Virus record (IMG/VR): IMGVR_UViG_3300045012_000027
Location: 1-22,772 of that record
Source: a virus
Length of the DNA: 22,772 nt
Direction: 5' to 3' (one strand)
Shown here one piece after another: positions 3,818 through 22,772 of this stretch. The notes under the pieces were generated by a model. The model saw only the letters and a program-made list of their open reading frames with translations, was not told where the DNA came from and ran no database searches. Position 1 is the stretch's first letter, and every line of letters begins with the position of its first letter. The position numbers were made by a program, and so were the translations under genes.

Positions 3818-4884
3818 GCAAAATCGACGAGATCGAAAAGCGCATCAACGCGGGCGACAATATCACAATCGAACCGGACGGAACGGTACGCGATATGACC
3901 GCAGAAGAAGTCGCCAGTCGCGAAGCAGATGAAGCCCGCGCAAAGGAAAAGGTTTCAGCGAAGACACGCAAGCCAATCCTTTGCCTCGATTTCGACGGCG
4001 TAATCCACAGCTATTCGAGCGGATGGAAAGGGGCAGACGTGATTCCCGATCCGCCGGTCGAAGGGGCAATCGCCTTCATGCTTGGCGCGATCGAACATTT
4101 CAACGTGGTGATATTCAGCTCCCGCTCTAACCAGCGGGGCGGCCTGAAAGCTATGCAGAATTGGCTCCGCGAGCATGCCGGTGCGACTTGGTACGAATCG
4201 CCAGCGGGGCCGGGACTTGAAGATATTCGTTTCGTTACCGAAAAACCTGCCGCGCTAGTCACCATAGATGACCGAGTGATCACATTTGACGGTACATGGC
4301 CGTCGATGGAAACCCTCAAAGGCTTCCAGCCTTGGAACAAACGCGCCCGCGCCCCATCCCCCGCCGCGCTGGACCCAGTGACGGTGGAGGCGTGCGCGAA
4401 AGCCGCTGGTGGGGCTAGATCACAAGGCGGACGATTAGTAGCCGAAGCAATCCGCGCTCTTCTCTCCCATCCCGCCCCCACCGGCAATGCGCCGGAGCCG
4501 GTAGCGCTAGAGTACGCTAGCACAAATAAAATTGCCGCGTGCCGGTGTGGTTTGTTCCCAAGTGTCTATGGCGACGGCGCAAAGCCAGATGATGGCTACC
4601 GCTCCCTTTGGTGTCAAACGTGCATGGTTCACGTCACTAAAATGATGCCCAACGAGCGCGAGGTCATCGACCACTGGAACGAATTACGCGAACAGGAGCA
4701 CGCTGCGCTCTACGCCGCCCCGGCCAGCAATCCCCAAGAGGGGATGACGCCTCTGCAAAAGCGCATGAACTCAGGCGGCCCGTTTGGTGGTGAGGATGTT
4801 GCGGTCAAGCCCGCCGAAGTCATCACCGATGCAATTTCCGAGATATCCACTCTGCGAGCAAGCCTCGTCACGCGCCCAGACTGA
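3814..4884 (+). CDS. HAD-family phosphatase fused to a Lar-like zinc domain
   Basis: This 356-residue protein starts with GTG at 3814, overlapping the previous stop (GTGA). Residues 54-176 form a HAD phosphatase core: motif I LCLDFDGVIHS (D59, D61), motif II VVIFSSRS (S102/S103), and VTIDDRVITF (D152, D153) as the acidic motif. The pattern matches phage HAD proteins related to polynucleotide-kinase phosphatase domains; substrate unknown. Residues 241-292 resemble the Lar restriction-alleviation family: ACRCG (C243, C245), LWCQTC (C267, C270), then EVIDHWNELRE. Between them is a Pro/Ala-rich linker. Lar proteins counter host restriction in Rac prophage; activity here is inference. The C-terminal 60 residues are unassigned. 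The HAD part is secure, the Lar-like part moderate. Confidence 0.8.
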   Translation: MSKIDEIEKRINAGDNITIEPDGTVRDMTAEEVASREADEARAKEKVSAKTRKPILCLDFDGVIHSYSSGWKGADVIPDPPVEGAIAFMLGAIEHFNVVIFSSRSNQRGGLKAMQNWLREHAGATWYESPAGPGLEDIRFVTEKPAALVTIDDRVITFDGTWPSMETLKGFQPWNKRARAPSPAALDPVTVEACAKAAGGARSQGGRLVAEAIRALLSHPAPTGNAPEPVALEYASTNKIAACRCGLFPSVYGDGAKPDDGYRSLWCQTCMVHVTKMMPNEREVIDHWNELREQEHAALYAAPASNPQEGMTPLQKRMNSGGPFGGEDVAVKPAEVITDAISEISTLRASLVTRPD

Positions 4885-5162: not shown

Positions 5163-5217
5163 CTCCTCGTATCTTCGCATCACCGTGCCGAAACCCCTAT
5201 AAATAAAGGAGATTGAG

Positions 5218-5511
5218 ATGGACGAGAAGCGCCAGCAAGTTACCGATCAGTGTCGCGTCGTCGCTCACCTCGCCAAAGCGATTTGGGAGGTCTACAGCGA
5301 CAAGGCCAAAATTTTCGCGTCCGACTCAAAAGGTCCAGATGACATCGTGGATCTCGTCGGTAAGTGGTCTCACGGCCATATGGAAACGCTCGGCGACATT
5401 CTGAACGGAATGGATGCTGTTGACGAAGAGGACGAGTGGACTGATCCGATTTTCGAGAAAGCCAAAGCTCTGTTTCCACAGGAAAACGCGGCGAGGATGG
5501 TGGCCCATTGA
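5218..5511 (+). CDS. Small acidic helical phage protein
   Basis: The 97-residue protein follows a clear ribosome site (AAAGGAGA, 5205-5212) at good distance from ATG 5218. It is mostly helical and acidic (DQCRVVAHLAKAIWEVY; GMDAVDEEDEWTD), ending in a basic/hydrophobic tail. The 55-base gap upstream contains nothing else I can name. Its stop (TGA 5509-5511) overlaps a TTG that may start the methyltransferase fragment. I recognise no family. Confidence 0.65.
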   Translation: MDEKRQQVTDQCRVVAHLAKAIWEVYSDKAKIFASDSKGPDDIVDLVGKWSHGHMETLGDILNGMDAVDEEDEWTDPIFEKAKALFPQENAARMVAH

Positions 5512-5810
5512 TAATGAGTTCTGTGATTTACATGAGATCAATGCACGGCAGAGCAATTCACCCGACCGAGAAGCCATCCGATTTGCTCGAGATCCTAATT
5601 CGTACATCTTGCCCGCCCTACGGCATTGTTGGCGACCTATTCGCGGGATCTGGCGCTGCAGGTGAAGCCGCAATGCGCGCTGGTCGACGCTATGCCGGAT
5701 GCGAGATCGACGCCGAAATGGCGGCAAGAGCCAATGCGCGCCTGTCGGCTATGTTGCCCTTCGGCCCTATGTCTCCGGCGAACCGGGCCGAAAAAGAACG
5801 GCAATCATAA
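5508..5810 (+). CDS. DNA methyltransferase C-terminal half, catalytic part missing
   Basis: About 100 residues from TTG 5508 (overlapping the previous stop) or 98 from ATG 5514. It reads HPTEKPSDLLEILIRTS, then GIVGDLFAGSGAAGEAAMRA, then GRRYAGCEIDAEMAARAN. These are the HPTEKP element, the SAM-binding FxGxG motif I and the following acidic strand of N6-adenine/N4-cytosine methylases in which the DPPY motif comes first. The DPPY catalytic motif and target-recognition part, which should lie upstream, are absent, and the adjacent genes at 4911 and 5218 do not supply them. It may be a decayed gene, a non-catalytic SAM-binding protein, or one half of a split enzyme. The domain call is secure; activity is doubtful. 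Confidence 0.75.
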   Translation: MIMSSVIYMRSMHGRAIHPTEKPSDLLEILIRTSCPPYGIVGDLFAGSGAAGEAAMRAGRRYAGCEIDAEMAARANARLSAMLPFGPMSPANRAEKERQS

Positions 5811-9841: not shown

Positions 9842-11674
9842 ATGGAAGGCTCCCGCTGGGCTACCGCGCCATATGAGGAAATGAGCGCGTCTCTGCTCTC
9901 TGAGCAGCCGATCACGCCCACCGAGGAATTGCCGAGGCCGAACGAAAACTGGGACACGCTGTTCTCACATCTCGAGGCTCGGCTTGGGATGTTGCGGTCC
10001 TGGCGGTATTCGTGGTGGGCATTTTGGGCTGTTCTCGCACGTTTTTTCCTGCCCCGTCGTTATACGTGGTTGGTCGTGTCCAATCGCATGGATCGCGGGC
10101 AAGCTCTCAATGATGCAATCATAGATAGTACTGGCCAGCTTGCGGTTCGAACGTGCTCCTCGGGTATGTGGACAGGTCTAACAAGCCCGTCACGCCCGTG
10201 GTTCAAGCTCGCTAACAGCCTGCCGTGGATAGAGTTAGACGCCGCGGCAAAGGCCTGGATTGAGGACACTGAAACCCGCGTCTATACCGTTTTGGCTGGG
10301 TCGAATTTCTATACCCAGATGGCCCAGGCGTTTCAGGACGTCACGGTATTCGGGACGGCACCGGTCATCATTTACGAGGACGACGAGGACGGAATTCGGC
10401 TCTACCTGCCGTGCGCCGGCGAGTACTATTTGGCCGTTGGGTCGCGCAATGACGTAGACACCCTGTACCGAGAATTCAACATGACCGCGCGTGCGATCGT
10501 GGAGATGATCAAGTTCGAGAACTGTCCTTCGCAGGTGCAAACGGCGTTCAACACCGGTGGCGCTTCGTGGGATCTGGAATTCACGGTTGCCCATGCGATC
10601 GAGCCGAACGTCAAGCTGAGTTCGCGAGGTGGCAAGAATTCGTCGATCGCGGTATTGCCTGGTGGGTTTGTTTATCGGGAAGTCTATTGGCTCAAGGGGA
10701 CGAAAACCCCGGGGCCGCTGAGCAAGAGGGGCTTTCGGACCAAGCCGTTCATGGCGGCGCGCTGGGCCACGACATCGAATGATCCTTACGGCCGCTCGCC
10801 GTGCATGGATGCTATCGGCGACACCAAGCAGGTACAGCAAGAGACGCGGCGCAAGGCGGAATTCATCGAAAAGGGCGTGCGGCCGCCGATGGGCGCAAAC
10901 GTCGAGCTAAAGAACGAGCCGGCGTCGATAATTCCGGCCCAAATCACCTACACGTCGACCGAAGGCGGCAAGAAGGGATTTTGGCCCCTTTTCGAGGTTT
11001 CCCCGTCGTGGGTCACGCCTTTGATCGAGGACATCAAACAGATATCCGCGCGGATCCAATCGTGCTTGTTCGTCGACCTGTTCATGGCGATTTCGAGGAT
11101 GGAGGGCGTCCAGCCGCGGAACGAGCTCGAGCTGACCAAGCGCGACCTCGAGCGGCTTCAGGAACTCGGTCCGTTCGTGCATTTATTCGAGACGGAATTC
11201 GCAGGTCCGGCGATCATGCGTATCATGGACATATTGCAGCGCAAGGGGATGCTCAAGACCAAGCCTCCTTCGTTGCAGAACGTGCCGCTGAAGATCGATT
11301 ATGTGTCGATCATGAAGCTCGCCCAGGCCTCGGCAGAATCAGTCTCAATGAAGGACGTATTCGCGGTCGCTGGCTCGCTATCGAGCGCCGCCAAGGCTGC
11401 CGGCGTTCCGGACCCGATCCGCAAGATCAATCTAGATAAGGCACTCCAGCATTACGGCGAAATAACCAATTTCAAATCGGATCTATTCTATACCGACGAT
11501 GAAGTTGCGGACCACGACAAGATTCGCCAGCAAGAGCAGCAGAAGGCACAGGCTCCTCAGCAGGCCATGGCAGCGGTCAACGCTGCCAAGACGCTTTCGG
11601 AGACTTCTACCGGCGGTGGGTCGGCCTTGAGTGCCATGTTGCCGCCAGGGGCCGCTGGAGCGCCAGGTGGCTGA
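9842..11674 (+). CDS. Portal (head-to-tail connector) protein
   Basis: The 610-residue protein matches the head-to-tail connecting portal family of podoviruses (T7-like). Features: an N-terminal helical region with WDTLFSHLEARLGMLRSWR; the stretch SSGMWTGLTSPSRPWFKLAN (near residue 110), which resembles the family signature for binding to the head and tail; FGTAPVIIYEDDEDG; and a C-terminal portion with Gln/Ala-rich helix (QQEQQKAQAPQQAMAAV). Twelve copies form the ring through which DNA is packaged and ejected. Size is normal for the family. It follows the proline-rich protein by three bases, and its end overlaps a 40-residue membrane gene. Confidence 0.88.
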   Translation: MEGSRWATAPYEEMSASLLSEQPITPTEELPRPNENWDTLFSHLEARLGMLRSWRYSWWAFWAVLARFFLPRRYTWLVVSNRMDRGQALNDAIIDSTGQLAVRTCSSGMWTGLTSPSRPWFKLANSLPWIELDAAAKAWIEDTETRVYTVLAGSNFYTQMAQAFQDVTVFGTAPVIIYEDDEDGIRLYLPCAGEYYLAVGSRNDVDTLYREFNMTARAIVEMIKFENCPSQVQTAFNTGGASWDLEFTVAHAIEPNVKLSSRGGKNSSIAVLPGGFVYREVYWLKGTKTPGPLSKRGFRTKPFMAARWATTSNDPYGRSPCMDAIGDTKQVQQETRRKAEFIEKGVRPPMGANVELKNEPASIIPAQITYTSTEGGKKGFWPLFEVSPSWVTPLIEDIKQISARIQSCLFVDLFMAISRMEGVQPRNELELTKRDLERLQELGPFVHLFETEFAGPAIMRIMDILQRKGMLKTKPPSLQNVPLKIDYVSIMKLAQASAESVSMKDVFAVAGSLSSAAKAAGVPDPIRKINLDKALQHYGEITNFKSDLFYTDDEVADHDKIRQQEQQKAQAPQQAMAAVNAAKTLSETSTGGGSALSAMLPPGAAGAPGG

Positions 11675-14018: not shown

Positions 14019-14886
14019 TCCAGTCACACCAGTGCCAAGTGCCCCTGAATTGCCTCTTACCGGCGGTGCTGCAGCGCCAGAGGCCCCGGTCACAGTTTCA
14101 GCCACCGCAAGTGCACCTGATCCTGCAACGCCGACGGTAACGCCTGAGCCGATCAAAGAACCTACTGCTCCTGAACCAATCAAGACAGCGGCCGAAACGC
14201 CTTCATTACTCGAAGAGATCGGTGCACCGGAAAAGCCTGCAGAAGCACCTAAACCGGAAGAGAAACCCGGCGATAAGCCGGCCGAGAAGCCTGCGGAAAA
14301 GGCCGCCGAGGCCAAGCCTGCCGAGAAACAGGTAGAGGTTAAACCAGCCGAACCGGTCAAGCCAGAACCTGTTGCCTACGAATACACCGTTCCTGAGACG
14401 ATCAAGATGGACGACGCCCTAAAGGGCACGTTCCACACCGCTTTGGACAATTTCCGCGCCGACCCTACCAAGGGCGCGCAGGGTCTGATGGACCTCCACA
14501 ATCAGGCTATGACGGACTACGCCACTCACCTTGCGGCCGAGCAACAGCGAGTTTTCAGCGAAACCCGCAAGGAATGGCGCAAGCAAGTCATGGCGGACGA
14601 GCAATTAGGCGGATCTGGCTACCAAACCACCATGAAGGCCGTCGCGCGGATGCGTGACATGGCCGTCCCCGAGAAAGATCGGGCCTCGTTCAACGAATTC
14701 CTGCGCGTGACCGGTGCTGGCGACCATCCGGCGTTTCTCCGCGCGATGCACAATTTCGCACGGTATTTCGACGAGCCTGGCCTACCCCCGCCGAATCCGA
14801 CGCCTCCACCCGGTAACGGCGCGAGACCCGGAGCGCGCGGGAGAGTGCTTTACGATAACCCAAGGTCATCAACCAACCGCCAGTAA
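14011..14886 (+). CDS. Scaffolding protein (head assembly)
   Basis: The 291-residue protein has a long Pro/Ala/Glu/Lys-rich N terminus (residues 1-120, repeated KPAEKPAE-type units), followed by a helical region with WRKQVMADEQLGGSGYQTTM and VTGAGDHPAFLRAMHNFARY. These last elements match phage scaffolding proteins of the T7/BPP-1-like type, where a WxxQVxADxExGG...GNHPxLxR pattern recurs. The protein should fill the procapsid and direct capsid assembly, leaving before maturation. The extreme C terminus reads GRVLYDNPRS (residues 278-286) plus SSTNRQ-like tail, and scaffold C termini commonly contact the capsid. It lies directly upstream of the major capsid gene. Confidence 0.78.
   Translation: MADPVTPVPSAPELPLTGGAAAPEAPVTVSATASAPDPATPTVTPEPIKEPTAPEPIKTAAETPSLLEEIGAPEKPAEAPKPEEKPGDKPAEKPAEKAAEAKPAEKQVEVKPAEPVKPEPVAYEYTVPETIKMDDALKGTFHTALDNFRADPTKGAQGLMDLHNQAMTDYATHLAAEQQRVFSETRKEWRKQVMADEQLGGSGYQTTMKAVARMRDMAVPEKDRASFNEFLRVTGAGDHPAFLRAMHNFARYFDEPGLPPPNPTPPPGNGARPGARGRVLYDNPRSSTNRQ
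14848..14868 (+). other. LYDNPRS heptapeptide, copy 1 (scaffold C terminus)
   Basis: Codons ctt tac gat aac cca agg tca encode LYDNPRS near the end of the scaffold. The same heptapeptide is at 21242-21262 and, with His for Asn, at 21558-21578, with different synonymous codons. See the finding for interpretation. Confidence 0.7.
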
Positions 14887-14914
14887 GCGGGCGAATTAGG
14901 GAAGGACTAATATC

Positions 14915-15961
14915 ATGGCGACTGGTCAATGGCCGACTCTGGTGGATCTGACGTCTCGCGTCGCTCCCGACGGCAAGCAGGCATACATCGCGGAAATGCT
15001 GTCTCAGTCGATCGAGACGCTTGAAGATATCCCGATGAAGGAATCGAACGAGATCGGCGGCCATGAATTCGTGTTCCGCACATCGATCCCGGCAGGTGCA
15101 TGGCGCCAATACAATCAGGGCGTCCCCTACTCCAAGTCGACGACCGCGAAGGCCCGCGTCGGCCTCGGCTCGTTGGAGGATTATTCCCAGGTCGACCGGA
15201 TGTTGGCTGAGGACTCTGGCGACATTGACGAGTTCCGAGAGAACGAGGACGTGGCGTTCCTCGAGGGCATGGGTCAGACGATGGAACAGACCCTCTGGTA
15301 CGGCAATACGGCGGTAACGCCGGCCGAGTTCATGGGCATGGCGCCGTTCTACAACACGGTTTCGACGGCCAATGCCCAGAACGCCCAGAACGTGATCGAC
15401 TGCGGCGGCACTGGTTCGTCGAACCTGTCGCTGTGGCTGGTTTGCTGGGGCGAGCGAACGATTTTCGGCCTTTATCCTCGGGGCTCCAAGGCCGGCATCA
15501 CCATGGAAGACAAGAGCGATACGGTCCCTGGATTCGACTCGGTCGGCAACCGGTTTGAAGCCTATACTTCGTGGTTCCGCCATCAGATGGGTGTTTGCCC
15601 GCAGGATTGGCGGTACGGCGTGCGTGCGGCAAATATCGACGTGACTAATGCTGGCCTAGCTGGCCCTAACGCGCTTGATTTCTTCGCCACCATGGCAGAA
15701 ATGATGCTGTTCCCGCCTCACCTCGGCAAGGGAACGTCCGGCATCACCAAGACAGACGCGCCGAATGACCCGGCGCCAGGTATCCGTCCGGTGTTCTACA
15801 CAAATCGCACGGGCCGGCATTGGATGGATGTGCAAGCAATGAGAGATAGGAATGTCCTCTTGCGGATTGATGACTACGCAGGCCGTGTGGTCGACGGCTA
15901 TCGCGGAATCCCGATCAAGATCTCTGACCAACTATTGACCACCGAATCTCGGGTGACCTGA
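14915..15961 (+). CDS. Major capsid protein
   Basis: The 348-residue protein begins behind a good ribosome site (AAGGA near 14901) and follows the scaffold gene. Segments typical of capsid proteins of the BPP-1-like podovirus group (Bbp17 type) are ATGQWPTLVDLTSRVAPDGK at the N terminus, MKESNEIGGHEFVFRTSIPA, FLEGMGQTMEQTLWYGN, and near the C terminus RPVFYTNRTGRHWMDVQAM and YRGIPIKISDQLL. The fold is expected to be HK97-like, forming the icosahedral shell; no protease motif is seen. Length and gene order (scaffold, capsid, cement) are standard. A 60-base gap downstream (15962-16021) holds no terminator I can see. Confidence 0.88.
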   Translation: MATGQWPTLVDLTSRVAPDGKQAYIAEMLSQSIETLEDIPMKESNEIGGHEFVFRTSIPAGAWRQYNQGVPYSKSTTAKARVGLGSLEDYSQVDRMLAEDSGDIDEFRENEDVAFLEGMGQTMEQTLWYGNTAVTPAEFMGMAPFYNTVSTANAQNAQNVIDCGGTGSSNLSLWLVCWGERTIFGLYPRGSKAGITMEDKSDTVPGFDSVGNRFEAYTSWFRHQMGVCPQDWRYGVRAANIDVTNAGLAGPNALDFFATMAEMMLFPPHLGKGTSGITKTDAPNDPAPGIRPVFYTNRTGRHWMDVQAMRDRNVLLRIDDYAGRVVDGYRGIPIKISDQLLTTESRVT

Positions 15962-16021
15962 TCGCTCCGAACCTGACCGATTTACCGGCGAAAGCCATAG
16001 AGACAAGAAAGGAATTATATC

Positions 16022-16591
16022 ATGCGTTCGGATGCACTTGTTGCCTTTATTCCGCTTGGTGCGCCGCTGTCGCTGGCCAACCTCGGAGCCGGCATTGTCG
16101 CGAATACGAACCCTCTCGATCTTCTTGGCCTCGGTGTCGGCATCAACCCGGCATCGGCCAATATCATCGGCAATGCGGCATTGTTCGGGACAGATCTCGG
16201 TGTTGGCGGGAAGAGGCCGGAACTCAATATTGGTGTTGGGACGGCCTTCGCGGCGGCAGCGGGTACGCTTCTGAAGATTGCACTACAGGCCGCTCCAGAT
16301 CTCGGCGTCGGCGGCAACTTCCAGCCGGGAACGTGGCAGGACGTCGTGTCCCAAGACAATATCGCCATTGCGAACCTGACGGCCGGCGCGATCCCGTTCC
16401 GTTGCCCGTGGATTCCCGACATGCCTCCTAGTCTGCGTCCGCGGTTCATGCGGCTGCAATTCTCACCGATGAGCGCCACGGCATTGCCGAGCGGCAGTTT
16501 CACGGCTGGCACGATCGCGTTTGCCCTCGTCACGACCGTCCGCGACGATCAGGCCAACAAGTTCGCCTCGAAGAATTACGCCGTCCAGTAA
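16022..16591 (+). CDS. Bbp16-like capsid cement protein
   Basis: The 189-residue protein follows the capsid gene with a clear ribosome site (AAAGGAA). It is rich in Gly/Ala/Leu and beta-like strands, with FAAAAGTLLKIALQAAPDLG, GGNFQPGTWQDVVSQDNIAI, FRCPWIPDMPPSLRPRFMRL and a final VTTVRDDQANKFASKNYAVQ. I recognise this as the Bbp16 family, decoration or cement proteins that bind the shell of BPP-1-like phages; the final strand-and-tail pattern is characteristic. It should stabilise the capsid. Position after the major capsid gene supports this. Confidence 0.72.
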   Translation: MRSDALVAFIPLGAPLSLANLGAGIVANTNPLDLLGLGVGINPASANIIGNAALFGTDLGVGGKRPELNIGVGTAFAAAAGTLLKIALQAAPDLGVGGNFQPGTWQDVVSQDNIAIANLTAGAIPFRCPWIPDMPPSLRPRFMRLQFSPMSATALPSGSFTAGTIAFALVTTVRDDQANKFASKNYAVQ

Positions 16592-16621
16592 ACTTGGCCG
16601 GCTTCAAAAGGATTTTAGCCC

Positions 16622-17413
16622 ATGGCTGGGCGCAGAAAACGGAGCGACGTTATGACCGAAGCGACGGAAGCCTTGCCGCTGACCGAAACGCCTGAGTTCA
16701 AGGAAGCTGTCACGAAAGCAACGCAGGCCGCGATTGCATCGGCGCTGCCGGGAATCGTGGCAGAACTCGCCAGGGCGAAAGGTGGTCTACCTATCTCGGC
16801 TGGTGAGCAGACTTGGGCCGAAGGTTTGGCCATGGCGATCGCTCAGCTTACCGATCAAGGCACAGGTCGTAAGCGCGTGGCCCCGGAAATCGTCAAGGCC
16901 CGTGAGGAAGCGCGGAAGGAAATGACCCGGCTTATCATTGAGGCCAAGACCTTCCACGACAAAGCAAAGGCAGAGGGGAAAGAGGACATCGCTCGGTCAT
17001 ATCTGCCGCTCTACCAGCTCCGCAATAAGGTCTATCTCGAGGAGATCCTGATCGAACCGGTTTATATTGACGTTGCCACGAAGGCACCGAGGCCCACAGA
17101 AATTGGCTGGCCTGGCGTACCGAGCGAGGCGATGATCCCGGTCAATGACGTGGCCAAAGGCATCCACGAGGCATTTTCGAATTCCATCGGTTCGACCGAA
17201 TGGCAGAAGAAGCCTGACACATTTGGTATCACCGCCGGTGGCCTCGTCGTTAAGAACGGCGCCGTCCAGCCCAAGCGCGGTCTTCCATCGGAAAATGGCA
17301 ATATCGATCCGTCCGGACTCACGATTCACCGCGGCGGCAGGACTGGGGACAAGAATTTCAAGGAAATTCCGATCCTTGGCACGGTGGCTCAACCGGCGAG
17401 GCAGGCGGTCTAG
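16622..17413 (+). CDS. Hypothetical structural-region protein
   Basis: A 263-residue protein from ATG 16622 (ATG 16652 is an alternative; the first 10 residues are strongly basic, AGRRKRSD). The first half is helical (EFKEAVTKATQAAIASALPG; EIVKAREEARKEMTRLIIEA), and the middle contains LPLYQLRNKVYLEEILIEPV, followed by a beta-rich C-terminal part (TFGITAGGLVVKNGAVQPKR) ending with Gly/Arg-rich sequence. I do not recognise the family. It lies between cement and a beta-rich structural protein and may be a virion or tail-adaptor component; that is inference from position. Confidence 0.65.
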   Translation: MAGRRKRSDVMTEATEALPLTETPEFKEAVTKATQAAIASALPGIVAELARAKGGLPISAGEQTWAEGLAMAIAQLTDQGTGRKRVAPEIVKAREEARKEMTRLIIEAKTFHDKAKAEGKEDIARSYLPLYQLRNKVYLEEILIEPVYIDVATKAPRPTEIGWPGVPSEAMIPVNDVAKGIHEAFSNSIGSTEWQKKPDTFGITAGGLVVKNGAVQPKRGLPSENGNIDPSGLTIHRGGRTGDKNFKEIPILGTVAQPARQAV

Positions 17414-17416
17414 TCT

Positions 17417-18316
17417 ATGGGGATTCCTGGCTCAGTCGGCATGCAAGCGTCTGGTCTCCCCCCTTTGGGGGATCAGGCTAATGCTGTCCTATCTGGCCAG
17501 ATCACTGCGGTAGGTCCGCAGTCGGCTTTCGCTTTTCGCGGGCCGATGAACCTTGAAATCTATGCGTCGATCAGTACGGCCCTGACTACCACGGTTGGAT
17601 CATTGGCCGCTACGGTCGCCGCTGCGACCGGTCTCGCGGCTGGCAACGCGATCAAGAGCGCAAATCTTCCTGGCGGGTCGACAATAGGAGCTATTGCAGG
17701 CACGAACGTCACTCTTGCGTTAGCTCCGCGAACGCATTGGGGTATTATTGATTCGTCCGGCAAGATTACCGGCAATTTCCCCACCGATCGCCTTCTGAAT
17801 GCGACGGTTACGGTTGTACAGCCTAGTGCAGAGGGCGTGACACTGCCGGCAGGGACGACTGTTTCAGCTATTCTACAGGCAAATGCGGTGCCGCCATCTG
17901 GCGCACAGGGCAATATCACTCCCGGCATCATTCAGCTTTCCAACGCGCCAACGGCATTGCCGGCCGAGGGCGCCCAAGTGGCATTCCTGTTTGCTCTTAC
18001 CGGTAACGGTGTCCAGGCAACGGGAGCTGATGCTACGGCGACGTTTACTGGCGGTCTAATTACGTGGTCTGGCACGGTCCAGCTTGAGCGCAGTTTCGAC
18101 GGCGGCCAGACTTGGGTCGTTGGCAACATCGGGGCGACCGGAACGCTGGCACAATGGACCGCTGGTCCGATCAGCATCACGTTTGGCGAACCGGAAAAGA
18201 ACGTGCTCTACCGGCTGAATACCATCGCGTACACGAGTGGTACGATAAATTACAGGATCAGTCAGACGGGCGGCGCCGCCGAATCGTTGGCCATTGGGCC
18301 GCTGTCTAGCGGCTAG
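17417..18316 (+). CDS. Beta-rich structural protein (head-fibre or tail-like)
   Basis: The 299-residue protein lies three bases after its neighbour. The first part has GSLAATVAAATGLAAGNAIK and SANLPGGSTIGAIAGTNVTL, then VTLPAGTTVSAILQANAVPP, a repeating GTxV...GTTVTxIxG pattern common in phage fibres and beta-solenoid surface proteins. The C-terminal third (VQLERSFDGGQTWVVGNIGA; KNVLYRLNTIAYTSGTINYR) looks like a beta-sandwich domain. No catalytic motif is visible. A virion surface role is likely from composition and position. The PAGTTV element recurs twice in the exported protein encoded next. Confidence 0.65.
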   Translation: MGIPGSVGMQASGLPPLGDQANAVLSGQITAVGPQSAFAFRGPMNLEIYASISTALTTTVGSLAATVAAATGLAAGNAIKSANLPGGSTIGAIAGTNVTLALAPRTHWGIIDSSGKITGNFPTDRLLNATVTVVQPSAEGVTLPAGTTVSAILQANAVPPSGAQGNITPGIIQLSNAPTALPAEGAQVAFLFALTGNGVQATGADATATFTGGLITWSGTVQLERSFDGGQTWVVGNIGATGTLAQWTAGPISITFGEPEKNVLYRLNTIAYTSGTINYRISQTGGAAESLAIGPLSSG

Positions 18317-18326
18317 GGAGAATGAC

Positions 18327-18827
18327 ATGAAGAGGATTTTGGCAGGCGTTGCAGCCCTCGGCCTTCTTGCAGGAATTGCTCTTGCTCAAGTGCCCGGGCT
18401 TTTCATCGCATCGCCGACTGGACTTGAACAGATCAACGTGCTGGTGCCTAGCACCGGGACGGTTGTCACCAATCCTCAGATTCAGACCGTCACTGTCAAC
18501 CAGATCAGGAATGCGACGGGCATTTTGGTCATCCCTGCAGGGACGACGGTTAATACTGTCTTGACCACCGCTACTGCAAAATTGGTATCCAGCGGCGCTA
18601 TTACGACATGGAATATCACCCTGCCGGCTTCTCCGTTCGATGGCGAAACTGTCGAGGTAGCCTGTCCTGGCGGCACTGCTACGGTAGCGGTTTCTGCAGC
18701 GGCAGTCCCGGCCGGTACAACGATCGTCGGGACGGCATTTACGGCCTGCACCTCAGGCGGTGCTGCGGCAAACACCGGAGAATATATTTACTCAATCGCC
18801 AACAACAATTGGTATCGGATTCAGTAA
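18327..18827 (+). CDS. Exported protein A of a paralogous pair
   Basis: The 166-residue protein starts at ATG 18327 after AGGGAGAA (18315-18322). It has a convincing Sec signal peptide: KR, hydrophobic ILAGVAALGLLAGIALA, and a probable cleavage after ALA at residue 20, giving a mature N terminus QVPG. The mature part is beta-rich and contains IPAGTTVNTVLTTATAKL and VPAGTTIVGTAF, like repeats in the gene before. The C-terminal half TWNITLPASPFDGETVEVAC to GEYIYSIANNNWYRIQ aligns with the next protein. Two Cys pairs (near 104 and 143) could form disulphides. Being exported, it is unlikely to be an intracellular head part; periplasmic, outer-surface or virion location is open. Confidence 0.68.
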   Translation: MKRILAGVAALGLLAGIALAQVPGLFIASPTGLEQINVLVPSTGTVVTNPQIQTVTVNQIRNATGILVIPAGTTVNTVLTTATAKLVSSGAITTWNITLPASPFDGETVEVACPGGTATVAVSAAAVPAGTTIVGTAFTACTSGGAAANTGEYIYSIANNNWYRIQ

Positions 18828-18854
18828 CCATCGCTCAACGCACGGAGAAGTAAG

Positions 18855-19340
18855 ATGAAGAGGCTTAGGATTTTAGTGTTGGCGCTGGCTGGAGTCCTTG
18901 GCCTAAGCGTCGCGATTGCTCAGGTGCCGTCGATACCGATCATCGGCAATCACCTTGCGCCGGATTTGATGCTGGTTATTCCGAATGGCGTTCCAAATGC
19001 GCAGTCTCAATTCTGCCAGTGGAATTGCATCACGAACGTCTACGGCTACTACAAGAACGGCACGGGCACGCAGAACCAGACTTACAACACGCCGGCGAAC
19101 ACTTCTCTTGTTCATTGGGGCAATGCCTCGGCGATTGCCAATTTGTATCTCTACCTGCCGTCGGCTCCGCTTGACGGCGCCCAAAACTGCTATTTATCGA
19201 TCGGTGGCGTGACGGCGATGACGCTCTACGCTGGCTTGACAGCGCAGACGCTCAACAACGCCATCACGGCGATGACGGCCAACACGCGCTATTGCTATCT
19301 CTATAGTGTCTCAAATACTGCCTGGGATCGCATCGACTGA
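18855..19340 (+). CDS. Exported protein B of a paralogous pair
   Basis: The 161-residue protein (ATG 18855, GGAGAAG upstream) has a Sec signal peptide: KRLR, hydrophobic ILVLALAGVLGLSVAIA, cleavage likely after AIA at residue 22 and mature start QVPS. The C-terminal portion parallels protein A: LPSAPLDGAQNCYLSIGG and YCYLYSVSNTAWDRID versus LPASPFDGETVEV and YIYSIANNNWYRIQ. Four cysteines, two close together (CQWNC), suggest disulphides outside the cytoplasm. Asn/Tyr-rich central sequence (YYKNGTGTQNQTYNTPANTS) is typical of surface proteins. The stop (TGA 19338-19340) shares its last base with the ATG of the O-antigen ligase-like gene (TGATG). Confidence 0.68.
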   Translation: MKRLRILVLALAGVLGLSVAIAQVPSIPIIGNHLAPDLMLVIPNGVPNAQSQFCQWNCITNVYGYYKNGTGTQNQTYNTPANTSLVHWGNASAIANLYLYLPSAPLDGAQNCYLSIGGVTAMTLYAGLTAQTLNNAITAMTANTRYCYLYSVSNTAWDRID

Positions 19341-20521
19341 TGAAATGGCTTTCCGACCATCGAATGGCGGTGCTTGGCTTTACGGTCAGCACCGCCTTTT
19401 TGCCGTTTCAGCTTGAGGGCGATTTTGTCCCACGTTGGGCCGCGATTGCGGTCGGAATTCCATTGGTGTCGAAGCTTGATATTCGTGCGCTGTCCGAGCC
19501 GATGATGCTTTTACTGGGCTTCCTGTTCTTCGTTTGCGTCATTTCACTCGTTCAAACGCCGTTCTTTCTCGTTGGCATGAACGACATGATTTTCGTCGTG
19601 ATCCTGTCTCTGGCGTTCCTGATGGGTGCTGGCCTAGAGACGATCGATGACTTAATGAAAGGCCTAGCCGTCGGCATTTCTATATCTACCGCGTTGGTTT
19701 CTGTGCAATATTTCAGCCAATGGTCCCCGTTCCCAGTAGGATCAATTAGCCCAGCCGGCCTATTTTATAATAGTGAGGTCATGGGCGAATTCGCGGCTTT
19801 GATCTTCGTGTGGGCTATGGCGAAGCGTAAGCTCATGCTCGCCGCCGCAACTGGGCTGGCCTTGGCATTGAGTTTCAGCCGGGTAGGACTGGGAGTTGCG
19901 GTGATCGGTCTTCTCGTCGCGTGGCGCCCGCGGTTGCGTGTGTTGCTCCCGGTAATCATCGCTGCGTTGGTTACTGGCGTGGCCCTTCTTGTATTTACCA
20001 AATTTTCCTCGTCATTCCATCGCATCGTCCTCTGGGGCGCCACGGTCATGTCGTTCACATCGCTCGGGCATGGTCTAGGCTGGGCGTCATTGGCATTTCC
20101 TGAGGAAGAGTTTAGCCATAGCGACGCGTTGCAGGCTATTGCTGAGCTCGGGATTGGCGGCTTAGCGCTTGTGTTGATCCCGATCGCGGCATTCCGCGGG
20201 AAACGAGCCGGTTATGCAGAGCATGCAATTTTCGCCGCGGTTTTGGTCGAAGTCCTTGTATCGTTCCCACTACATTTCCCGGCAAGTGGCTTTGTGGCTG
20301 CGGTTGTGGCGGGCTTTATGGTTGGCCTTAGGCCTGATGTACGCCGTCTGCCATTTGTCAGCCATCCATCGTATGAGTTATGTCGTGTTCGGTGGCGAGA
20401 TGCTGAAAACGGAAATGATGGACACGGCCAACGCCTCGGTGGCGTGGTATCCATTCGATCCGTATTTGAGAAGCTTGCGACATTACGTCCGAGATCAACT
20501 CGCATCACTGGAGAAGCGTGA
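19340..20521 (+). CDS. O-antigen ligase/polymerase-like membrane protein (Wzy_C class)
   Basis: The 393-residue protein has about nine or ten hydrophobic segments (for example around residues 54-72, 83-97, 150-160, 165-178, 183-195, 202-220, 269-284, 297-330). Its centre carries the features of the Wzy_C family: [20 protein letters not shown] (R181), then a loop with [20 protein letters not shown] (R228, W232) and [17 protein letters not shown] (H260, E269). These enzymes polymerise or ligate O-antigen or other glycans on a lipid carrier at the inner membrane's outer face. Phages use such genes for serotype conversion. It starts with ATG 19340 overlapping the previous stop by one base. The last 60 codons (from about 20337) are atypical: another frame has better coding character there. 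Confidence 0.75.
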
Positions 20522-20621
20522 TGCCACCAGTCAGCCAAGCGCAACGCAAGGCCATGTGGGCAGCGGCCTCTGGGAAGTCGACCCTCGGAATTCCGAAGAA
20601 AGTGGGGAAGGAATTCGCTGA
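20337..20621 (+). other. Alternative-frame coding segment at the end of the O-antigen ligase-like gene
   Basis: A +1-shifted frame relative to 19340, from ATG 20337 (or 20373), reads [20 protein letters not shown] then [20 protein letters not shown]. In the 61 codons from 20337 to 20519 I counted G or C at the third position in 39 (64%), against 25 of 63 (40%) for the annotated frame over 20330-20518. The neighbours use G/C-leaning third positions, so this frame is the likelier coding one. It would be either the true C terminus after a frameshift or a separate gene overlapping the next one. Frame continues to a stop at 20619-20621. Confidence 0.5.
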
Positions 20622-20694
20622 AGCTGATCCTGGCGGCAAGCTTCCTGAGAAGAAGAAATCTCGCCGCGAGGCATTTTACGGCAAGAAGGGCTGA
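20521..20694 (+). CDS. 57-residue basic phage protein
   Basis: ATG 20521 overlaps the previous stop (TGATG). The product starts [20 protein letters not shown], followed by [20 protein letters not shown] and a basic tail ([17 protein letters not shown]). I recognise small phage proteins with the pattern [42 protein letters not shown]; their role is not established to my knowledge. Highly charged and basic, it probably binds nucleic acid or virion proteins. The final EAFYGKKG is at the same place as the LYDNPRS/LYRKD-like tails of neighbouring genes. Confidence 0.7.
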
Positions 20695-20695
20695 A

Positions 20696-21274
20696 ATGGT
20701 CGATGACGATGACGATGACGATGAAAATGATCGGATCATCTTATCTCCAAAGGTGGGGAAGGACGGCCTATTCGTCGAGGTCGACGACGATTCTCCGGAG
20801 CGTGAAACCGTCGAGATCCATAATCGCGAGCGGTTTGCGATCCATTTCAAGTATGCCGACAAGCTTTGTGGACTTCAGCCGACCTATGACGAGAAGGGTG
20901 ACTATAACTGCGGGCGGTGCAATCAGGCGGACGAATACGAATGCCTGCTCGTCGATATCCCAAGGATCGACCGAGACGCGGGGTCTTGCGGCGATTGGGA
21001 GAAAATCCGCAAGGGCGATCCCGAATTGCGGCTCGAGAAATCAGACGCACAGAAATCTGTCACTGCGGCTGGATACGGCGTTGCAGCAAACGGCAAGGGA
21101 TTTGGCTGCCATCGTTGTCCGTTCGCCTCGCGCGCGATTCGGCCTGATAGCGCCAACCGAGACCTGTATTGCGGCAAAGGTGATTTCCGTGTGTCGGGGA
21201 ATGCCTGCTGTGTTCTCAACGGCGCGCCTTTGCGAAAGAAGCTTTACGACAACCCGAGGTCGAGGGCATCATGA
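20696..21274 (+). CDS. Cys-rich phage protein with Asp run and LYDNPRS tail
   Basis: The 192-residue protein starts ATG 20696 with seven Asp in a row (residues 3-9), from a GATGAC repeat. It has ten cysteines: C58, C72, C75, C83, C98 (DYNCGRCNQADEYECLLVD; SCGDWEK) and C138, C141, C159, C171, C172. The first set, CxxC x7 C x14 C, has the order of iron-sulphur or zinc ligands in HiPIP-like small proteins, though the spacing differs from HiPIPs. The second (GCHRCPFASRA ... ACC) suggests another metal or disulphide site. It ends KKLYDNPRSRAS. Exact cofactor unknown. Position suggests a virion-associated protein; a high cysteine content is unusual for phage structural genes. Confidence 0.65.
   Translation: MVDDDDDDDENDRIILSPKVGKDGLFVEVDDDSPERETVEIHNRERFAIHFKYADKLCGLQPTYDEKGDYNCGRCNQADEYECLLVDIPRIDRDAGSCGDWEKIRKGDPELRLEKSDAQKSVTAAGYGVAANGKGFGCHRCPFASRAIRPDSANRDLYCGKGDFRVSGNACCVLNGAPLRKKLYDNPRSRAS
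20702..20724 (+). repeat. GATGAC hexanucleotide run coding for Asp
   Basis: The sequence holds (GATGAC) three times plus GATGA at 20702-20724, encoding part of the seven-Asp run. Such a short tandem repeat is prone to slippage and the number of Asp may vary between related phages. Confidence 0.7.
21242..21262 (+). other. LYDNPRS heptapeptide, copy 2 (Cys-rich protein C terminus)
   Basis: Codons ctt tac gac aac ccg agg tcg give LYDNPRS, identical to the scaffold copy but with four synonymous differences in seven codons; then Arg-Ala-Ser and stop. Confidence 0.7.
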
Positions 21275-21528
21275 GTTCGCTTTCGATGGTCGATATGATG
21301 AGCCGCAGCATGGCTGAGCCGAAGAAGAAAAAGGGTTGGATCAAGAAGGGTGCTTCGAAGCATCCCGGTCTGTTTCGGAAGAAGGCCGAGCGCGCTGGCG
21401 AGACTACGCGGGAGTTTGCCGAGGAAAAGAAGGATGTCGGGGGTAAACTCGGCAAGGAAGCCAATTTTGCATTGAACGCGGTGGGCGCCGCGAAGAAGCG
21501 CAAAAGCCCGCTTTATCGAAAGGACTGA
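21271..21528 (+). CDS. Small very basic virion-region protein
   Basis: The 85-residue protein (ATG 21271 overlapping the previous stop, ATGA) is Met/Ser-rich at the start (SSLSMVDMMSRSMAEP), then has a basic segment (KKKKGWIKKGASKHPGLFRK) and a helix (ETTREFAEEKKDVGGKLGKE), ending AAKKRKSPLYRKD. Lys-rich composition suggests nucleic-acid contact, as in small internal virion proteins. I do not recognise the exact family. Its tail SPLYRKD partly resembles LYDNPRS (LY plus a basic residue). Next ATG is two bases after its stop. Confidence 0.6.
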   Translation: MSSLSMVDMMSRSMAEPKKKKGWIKKGASKHPGLFRKKAERAGETTREFAEEKKDVGGKLGKEANFALNAVGAAKKRKSPLYRKD

Positions 21529-21530
21529 CG

Positions 21531-21965
21531 ATGGCCGAAGAGAAAAAGAAATCGAGACTTTACGACCATCCTCGCAGCGGCGGTAAGGGCGAGGAGCCCA
21601 AGGCTGAGAAAAAACTCGCTGAGAGAGAGTCGAAGCCTGCGGCCGACGAAAAGCCGAAGGCGGAGATTAAATCCGAAAAGCCTGCCGAGAAGCCGATCCA
21701 CGAACGGCACGCCGAAGAACGCGAGGCGATGCACAAGACGCACGAGACCGAGCGTCGTGACATGCACGGCAACCACCGCGAGGAGCATCGTATGATGCAC
21801 TCCAGACATGAAAAGGCCCACAAGGAGCTCGGCGAGCGGCAGATGGCCGAAATGGCGGCTGCCCCTGCGGCCGGGGGTGCACCGGGGGATGCGCCGGCGG
21901 CGGCTGGTGCTCAGGCCCCGGCGGCCGCGGCACCGGCTGCGCCATCCGCACCGATGGCGGCCTAG
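21531..21965 (+). CDS. Lys/Glu/His-rich helical protein with N-terminal LYDHPRS
   Basis: The 144-residue protein starts ATG 21531 after AAAGGAC. It opens MAEEKKKSRLYDHPRSGGKG, so the heptapeptide is at residues 10-16 with His for Asn. Residues 18-55 are Lys/Glu/Pro-rich (KPAEKP units like the scaffold's). Residues 57-104 form a long helix with histidine in a near-regular spacing (HERHAEEREAMHKTHETERR; MHGNHREEHRMMHSRHEKAH). The C-terminal 40 residues are Ala/Pro-rich. The helical HxxxH repeats could bind metal or pair with acidic partners, but nothing is known. I have seen similar His-rich proteins near capsid genes in other phages. Virion association is inference. Confidence 0.65.
   Translation: MAEEKKKSRLYDHPRSGGKGEEPKAEKKLAERESKPAADEKPKAEIKSEKPAEKPIHERHAEEREAMHKTHETERRDMHGNHREEHRMMHSRHEKAHKELGERQMAEMAAAPAAGGAPGDAPAAAGAQAPAAAAPAAPSAPMAA
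21558..21578 (+). other. LYDHPRS heptapeptide, copy 3 (His-rich protein N terminus)
   Basis: Codons ctt tac gac cat cct cgc agc give LYDHPRS, differing from the other copies by Asn-to-His and by synonymous codons. Unlike copies 1 and 2 it is near the N terminus. Confidence 0.65.
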
Positions 21966-21967
21966 CC

Positions 21968-22267
21968 ATGTGGAGTCGGCTCGTAGACATGGAACTAGAC
22001 GACGAATCCAAGTTGGATGCGTGCTGTCCTATGCCGTGTCCAAAGCCGGATTATCCATATGGATTAAAAATCAGCCTAACCCACAAAGAGCTTGAAAAGC
22101 TTGGACTAGATGCTGATTGTGATGTCGGAGATATGCTTGATATTCGTTGCTTTGCCACGGTGACGTCGGTAAGCAAGAGCGAAGACGGCGATGGTCAACG
22201 ATGTTCCGTGGAGCTTCAGATCGAAAAAATGGCCGTTGAAGACGAAATGAACGAATCGGAGGACTAA
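21968..22267 (+). CDS. Capsid staple-like small phage protein
   Basis: The 99-residue protein (ATG 21968, two bases after the previous stop) has MWSRLVDMELDDESKLDACC, then PKPDYPYGLKISLTHKELEK LGLDADCDVGDMLDIRCFAT in two adjoining parts, and VTSVSKSEDG with a strand ending in VELQIEKMAV. It matches a common phage family with the pattern LxDEDKxD...PDYPYGLRIxLxxxExxKLGL...CxVGDMIxxxAxAxVTSVS...ELQI; I believe it is a capsid-linked staple or decoration protein in some phages, but the assigned name is uncertain. Four to five Cys are present (CCPMPC near 20-25). It lies 6 kb after the major capsid gene, which is unusual if it is a capsid part. Confidence 0.6.
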   Translation: MWSRLVDMELDDESKLDACCPMPCPKPDYPYGLKISLTHKELEKLGLDADCDVGDMLDIRCFATVTSVSKSEDGDGQRCSVELQIEKMAVEDEMNESED

Positions 22268-22507: not shown

Positions 22508-22772
22508 ATGCGGATCGGTCTCATATTCGCTCTTATGGGGGCCTTGATTGGGCATGGAGCGGCGGCTCAAATTGCATCGTTTGGCGACAGCATAAGCGCC
22601 GGCACGCTGACGCCAGCAGCCGCAAATTGGCCTCAGATAGCCGGAATTTTCAAGAACGAAGCCATCACAAACTATGCGGTGTCCGGTGCTCAGGCAGCCG
22701 ACCAAGCCGACGAGATTTACGGCCTCCTCTCCGTAGATGGCAGCACATTCAGTAAGTCCCCAAAAGTCACCT
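22508..22772 (+). CDS. Exported SGNH/GDSL hydrolase (3' partial)
   Basis: From ATG 22508 (AGAGGTG upstream) the frame is open to the window end, giving the first 88 residues. A Sec signal peptide (RIGLIFALMGALIGHGAAA, probable cut after residue 20) leads to QIASFGDSISAG, the GDSL block I with nucleophile S28. It is followed by ANWPQIAGIF and NYAVSGAQAADQADEIYG, block II with the conserved Gly. Blocks III and V, with Asn and the Asp-His pair, lie beyond the window. SGNH enzymes cleave acyl or acetyl esters, often on polysaccharides. With a signal peptide it may modify host surface glycans or be part of a tail spike. Proximity to the O-antigen ligase-like gene supports a cell-surface role. Confidence 0.8.
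   Translation, partial: MRIGLIFALMGALIGHGAAAQIASFGDSISAGTLTPAAANWPQIAGIFKNEAITNYAVSGAQAADQADEIYGLLSVDGSTFSKSPKVT

Follow-up and report, generated by a model that had tools for sequence, protein, structure and literature searches.

A short tail shared by the putative scaffold and unrelated small proteins in head modules of GP7-type phages, a candidate capsid-docking tag

Short peptides that address proteins to a capsid are already known, both as cargo-loading peptides and as capsid-targeting tags. In encapsulins, unrelated cargo is loaded by means of a short peptide at one protein end, which attaches to the inside of an HK97-fold shell. Among phages, T4 uses its capsid targeting sequence (CTS), a short tag carried by diverse small internal proteins, to bring them into the precursor head (PMC3012670), and in P1 the N-terminal segment of DarB is sufficient to send a reporter to the capsid (PMC9024508). 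In the P22 scaffold gp8, the C-terminal end sits on the inner face of the procapsid and binds the coat protein there; removal of the 11 C-terminal residues abolishes coat binding (PMC9965877). A partial literature search gave no report of a tag that consists of the C-terminus of the scaffold itself and is kept matched to it across unrelated proteins. Such an arrangement is proposed here for a phage head module of the epsilon15/BPP-1 type.

The head module and its heptapeptides

The window, i.e., the whole stretch of 22,772 nucleotides that was analyzed, contains a GP7-family major capsid protein (MCP) gene, a PF12236 portal gene upstream of it and a PHROG 458 gene immediately before it, and is consequently assigned to the GP7-type head modules (Table 1). 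The PHROG 458 product is putatively the scaffold, as suggested by its position and by its homology with proteins found at the same place in epsilon15 (gp6), phiV10 (p09) and BPP-1 (bbp18).

Table 1. Coordinates of the features discussed, in the window and, in the last two rows, in epsilon15
Feature	Position	Strand	Evidence or remark
Source: IMG/VR virus record IMGVR_UViG_3300045012_000027	1 to 22,772		22.8 kb
Portal (head-tail connector), context	9842..11674	+	PF12236, E 1.2e-106
Scaffold-position protein, 291 aa	14011..14886	+	PHROG 458, E 1.3e-13; directly 5' of the MCP gene
Tag LYDNPRS, scaffold C-terminus	14848..14868	+	In relatives kept as [LIVM]YD[NH]PRS or variants
MCP, GP7 family (epsilon15/BPP-1 type)	14915..15961	+	PF20911, E 8.5e-99; 3j4u, 3j40
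Small basic protein, family D (MPPVSQAQR...)	20521..20694	+	PHROG 16759
Tag variant AFYGKKG, family D C-terminus	20671..20691	+	Sequence
Cys-rich protein, family E, 192 aa	20696..21274	+	Open gene
Tag LYDNPRS, Cys-rich protein C-terminus	21242..21262	+	3 residues before protein end
Small basic protein, family B (KKxWIKKxxxxHxGxFRKKAE)	21271..21528	+	PHROG 20603
Tag variant SPLYRKD, family B C-terminus	21505..21525	+	Tyr invariant in 11 orthologs
His-rich protein, family A, 144 aa	21531..21965	+	Tag near N-terminus; Tyr-Asp invariant in 11 orthologs
Tag LYDHPRS, His-rich protein	21558..21578	+	Residues 10-16
gp10-family protein (PHROG 825)	21968..22267	+	E 3.6e-17; homolog of epsilon15 gp10 and BPP-1 bbp20
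epsilon15 (L209) gp8	4472-4864		130 aa; annotation: similar to BPP-1 cement protein
epsilon15 (L209) gp10	5206-5541		Ends AFYPDGEDD

Some further genes of the window have recognizable features. Within the head module, positions 19340-20521 encode a very hydrophobic protein of 393 aa, with multiple membrane spans and no Pfam match, look-alikes of which are present at the same place in contigs L009 and L060. Positions 18294-18827 (177 aa) and 18855-19340 (161 aa) encode two consecutive proteins, both with signal-peptide-like starts. The gene at 22509-22772, which runs off the window end, also has a signal-peptide-like start, followed by FGDSISAG, a stretch that resembles the SGNH/GDSL hydrolase motif.

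A sequence-only reading of this DNA had pointed out a heptapeptide, LYDNPRS in two copies and LYDHPRS in one, shared by the scaffold and two later small proteins. All three copies are indeed in frame in open genes, that of the scaffold lying five residues before the protein end, and their codons are as originally read, with synonymous differences at many positions. On the basis of residue composition, the predicted proteins of the window should contain only 5.4e-6 copies of LYD[NH]PRS. The differing codons indicate that the sharing does not result from recent DNA copying. A functionless exchange of gene ends by recombination would account for the terminal position of the tails in their genes and for their matching inside each genome; nevertheless, it is very improbable, given the many synonymous differences within this one genome, the invariance of the Tyr across orthologs and the unrelated flanks. 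The neighboring ends SPLYRKD and AFYGKKG, previously described as partly similar, are genuine members of a wider tail motif.

In viral contigs, a degenerate DNA pattern for LYDHPRS gives 28 matches vs 5 when the codon order is scrambled. In nine of these 28 contigs a scaffold or a small protein ends in LYDHPRS, the small proteins adjoining this head module or belonging to the same families as its own, while the rest of the matches resemble spurious short frames. The partial literature search returned no mention of the heptapeptides.

Scaffold tails and other tag bearers in GP7-type phages

MCP relatives were gathered from viral contigs and bacterial genomes, and the tails encoded by the gene just before the GP7 MCP gene were counted without preselection for the motif (a count on motif-preselected scaffolds was dropped). 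The pair [LMIFVW]Y is present within the last 20 residues in 125 of 145 distinct tails, vs 18.7 expected after shuffling each tail, and the background rate of a hydrophobic-Tyr tail among other genes is 8.9%. In 12 more tails Phe or His replaces Tyr, and several of the remaining untagged ones look like miscalled frames. The form of the tail varies by lineage (LYDNPRS, IYDHPRS, LYTHPTS, MYDHPSS, VLYGK, AFYPKK, LYPNxx, GWYDS, LYASK, EKRYGTKS), which indicates that LYDNPRS is the form taken locally by a scaffold end common to the whole family. Consequently, the motif originally suggested for searches, [LM]YD[NHK]xRS, is real in this clade but too narrow for the tail found across GP7-type phages. 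In Pseudomonas phage AF (L341), the gp07 scaffold ends in EAVLWPTMQQQ, with Trp for Tyr; a gp10 homolog was not seen in the part of this genome inspected.

The tag is also carried by several non-homologous families. The first is the gp10 family (family F, PHROG 825), which includes epsilon15 gp10, phiV10 p13 and BPP-1 bbp20. Five additional families occur in the window's clade: A, His-rich and tagged at the N-terminus; B, with the signature KKxWIxKAVP...; C, with KLxGEAASKAAxQATAMVKxGVPEG; D, with MPPVSxAQR...GGKLPEKKK; and E, Cys-rich. Most of the bearers are small, several different tagged families are found per genome, and a short tag is common to unrelated proteins of one phage, as is characteristic of the T4 CTS type. 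The window carries families A, B, D and E together with a gp10-family protein whose tail is acidic and tagless; in this clade the gp10 tag is mostly lost. Family D orthologs in other genomes end in LYDHPRS, LYTHPRS or RWYGKS, and a Cys-rich 65-aa protein in L035 has the same tag at its end. In L062 the scaffold reads LHDHPRS, with His for Tyr, and the same replacement is observed in VLHDHPRS and PLHDNPRS, located near the N-termini of two open frames at -5280 and -2389 relative to the MCP gene start. Families C and D never occur together in one genome of this set and, where seen, either of them sits shortly before family B (e.g., L014 and L060 vs the window, L005 and L129, the last a related prophage of Rhizobium sp. 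BK313), as if either could fill a single cargo position.

The matching tail is absent from the other head and tail proteins inspected in epsilon15, phiV10 and BPP-1. A direct homolog search with the His-rich protein gave no hit in viral contigs or GenBank phages, and families B, C and D have no match in GenBank phages. The gp10 fold has phage homologs only, with no match among solved structures.

Co-variation of the tails and dependence on capsid type

For the co-variation analysis, family members were identified by their body alone, with tails stripped or excluded from the models, and the match of each tail to the scaffold of its own genome was compared with that to permuted scaffolds. At MCP identity below 80%, the z values are 7.2 for family B (n=30), 6.9 for C (n=16), 5.1 for D (n=20) and 7.9 for gp10 (n=32); below 65%, they are 4.9 (n=14), 5.5 (n=10), 3.8 (n=9) and 6.6 (n=16), respectively. 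The controls, namely cargo body segments, a scaffold body segment and MCP C-termini, show no comparable excess (z from -1.7 to 2.1). The permutations are tree-free and kinship is handled through clustering and these negative controls, which render it unlikely that the matching stems from shared ancestry or composition. Furthermore, the gp10-scaffold match remains when the hydrophobic-aromatic pair is left out, with p<=5e-5 at both 90% and 75% clustering and p 0.013 at 60%, where only 7 pairs contribute.

Cargo tails of non-homologous families also match each other within genomes, as observed for B-C and B-D (p<=5e-5) and for D-gp10 (p 0.02), with no within-genome match for B-gp10 (p 0.53). For the N-terminal tag of family A, co-variation with the scaffold is not significant (p 0.19, n=9), which limits the claim. 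Pairs within a genome include LYTHPTS/LYTHPTS, GWY/RWY and LFDKKS/LFNKKS, and particularly striking matches are found in contigs L051, L060, L255, L261, L332, L071/L073, L302 and L319. The same is readily apparent in described phages when the scaffold tail is set beside that of the gp10-family protein: AFYPKK (gp6) and AFYPDGEDD (gp10) in epsilon15, AEVLYGK and AETLYGNGGE in phiV10, RRLYAASNMNP and QRLYGASSMSA in BPP-1, RMYPDM and RMYADDPSMKD in CP2.

The presence of the tag follows the capsid type and not the small-protein family. In contigs with a GP7 MCP, Tyr occurs within the last 13 residues of 42 of 46 distinct tails of family B, 19 of 22 of family C and 28 of 29 of family D. In contrast, B or C proteins are tagless in four contigs with other major head protein families (phrog_3437 in L238 and L323, phrog_1357 in L263, phrog_371 in L317), where their ends are simple basic stretches, e.g., NKMQSKHAKKK or LAETLARVRK. 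These four, few as they are and consistent in direction, were the ones used, each having an identified head protein of another family; the bulk of the non-GP7 contigs was dropped as a control, being impure and containing many fragments. This dependence also bears on the notion that a host or phage processing factor reads the tail, as a degron or a protease recognition site, on proteins meant for removal. The label 'protease' that PHROGs assigns to PHROG 458, the scaffold-position family, would favor it, yet it is very unlikely, considering that tag presence tracks capsid type, that tags are found at either terminus and vary between phages with similar hosts (LYGK in phiV10, AFYP in epsilon15), and that the BPP-1 capsid proteins are uncleaved (PMC3863775).

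Proposed docking role and comparison with known systems

The best explanation of these findings, and a likely one, is a capsid-docking tag copied from the scaffold C-terminus that recruits accessory proteins to the procapsid. In GP7-type phages the home of the tag would be the C-terminal end of the scaffold, and its form a hydrophobic residue followed by Tyr (or Phe, Trp, rarely His) and a lineage-specific extension, here LYDNPRS. Its target would be a site on the head during assembly, most likely located on the inside of the MCP. Unrelated accessory proteins bearing the same tag at one end would, according to this proposal, bind the same site and be gathered with the scaffold into or onto the procapsid; the bearers would be the gp10 family in most of the group and, in this clade, also the small basic, Cys-rich and His-rich proteins. 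When this site changes over time in a lineage, the tags of scaffold and cargo would be expected to change in step. The small proteins are thus probably recruited through a single docking site on the new capsid, shared with the scaffold. Of the docking tag already put forward from the sequence, the sharing with the scaffold C-terminus and the conservation at protein level stand, in view of the co-variation and of the tagless proteins in the four contigs with other capsids; the MCP is its presumed receptor, the scaffold tail possibly binding the MCP inner face as in P22.

The nature of the receptor was approached with AlphaFold2, by reading the scaffold tail through into the MCP (stop codon as Gly, 31 rows). 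The MCP folded and the tag was left unplaced, with pLDDT <50 for residues 1-53, in a monomer predicted from a shallow alignment. The unplaced tag lends docking to the shell no support and, since a site between subunits is unable to form in a monomeric chain, is no refutation of it either. The same tag might instead address another receptor, for example a packaging protein, the portal or a different region of the scaffold, with recruitment there and not to the shell. This would be in line with the missing site on the MCP monomer and with the fact that portal, scaffold and MCP travel together, so that co-variation cannot separate them as receptor. It is nevertheless unlikely by analogy with P22, where the coat protein is contacted by the C-terminus of the scaffold (PMC9965877), and the MCP is preferred here.

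Carriage of the small tagged proteins into the virion is supported indirectly by epsilon15, where proteomics of infectious particles putatively detected gp10, which has an AFYP.. end like that of its scaffold (PMC9207676). This protein was at one time built as the outer staple; a subsequent study concluded that a different protein of 130 aa fits the density (PMC9207676). The length of gp8 is the same as that of this protein, suggesting that gp10 is probably not the outer staple. It is therefore a candidate for a virion protein without an assigned place that bears the scaffold's own tail. Alternatively, the tagged small proteins could be competitors, and not cargo, which stay unpackaged and act by timing scaffold release or restricting assembly; any protein that uses the scaffold's site will necessarily compete with the scaffold, and small size is common among the bearers. 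This alternative is improbable, because the several tagged families per genome exceed the need for one regulator and epsilon15 gp10 is putatively a particle component. Under the preferred capsid-docking explanation, the tagged proteins would be packaged and would act later.

On a broader scale, the scaffold C-terminal end could be an interchangeable address label throughout the GP7-type group, forming a general cargo-loading system similar to that of encapsulins, a generalization with about even chances. Unrelated proteins would gain the label at either end, lose it, or keep it matched to the local scaffold. If true, the system would include the model phages epsilon15, phiV10 and BPP-1, would explain the presence of epsilon15 gp10 in virions without an outer staple role, and would imply a set of packaged proteins delivered into the host. 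The tag offers a sequence rule for predicting which uncharacterized proteins are head-associated in a large and widespread phage group, a likely shared role for the orphan families PHROG 825, 16759 and 20603, and a short peptide that may serve to load proteins into GP7-type capsids. The key prediction is tag-dependent binding to the procapsid.

With respect to the systems described so far, the likeness to encapsulins is in principle only, as the sequences differ and no scaffold is imitated in encapsulins. The T4 CTS resembles the present tag in being short and borne by diverse small proteins, but it targets the scaffolding core, whereas here the scaffold-position protein itself ends in the tag. 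The present tag is further set apart from the CTS family in that it is mostly C-terminal and aromatic-centered, occurs in podoviruses of the epsilon15 type and varies together with the scaffold. The P1 DarB signal differs in being N-terminal, 30 residues long and confined to one protein, and the available part of PMC9024508 mentions no sharing with a scaffold. The C-terminal end of P22 gp8, similar in binding the inner coat face, is a helix-turn-helix that acts on a different coat family, and the accessible sections of PMC9965877 do not describe the sharing of this element with cargo. In the family of epsilon15 gp10 and BPP-1 bbp20 (PHROG 825), the tag is present and matched to the phage's own scaffold.
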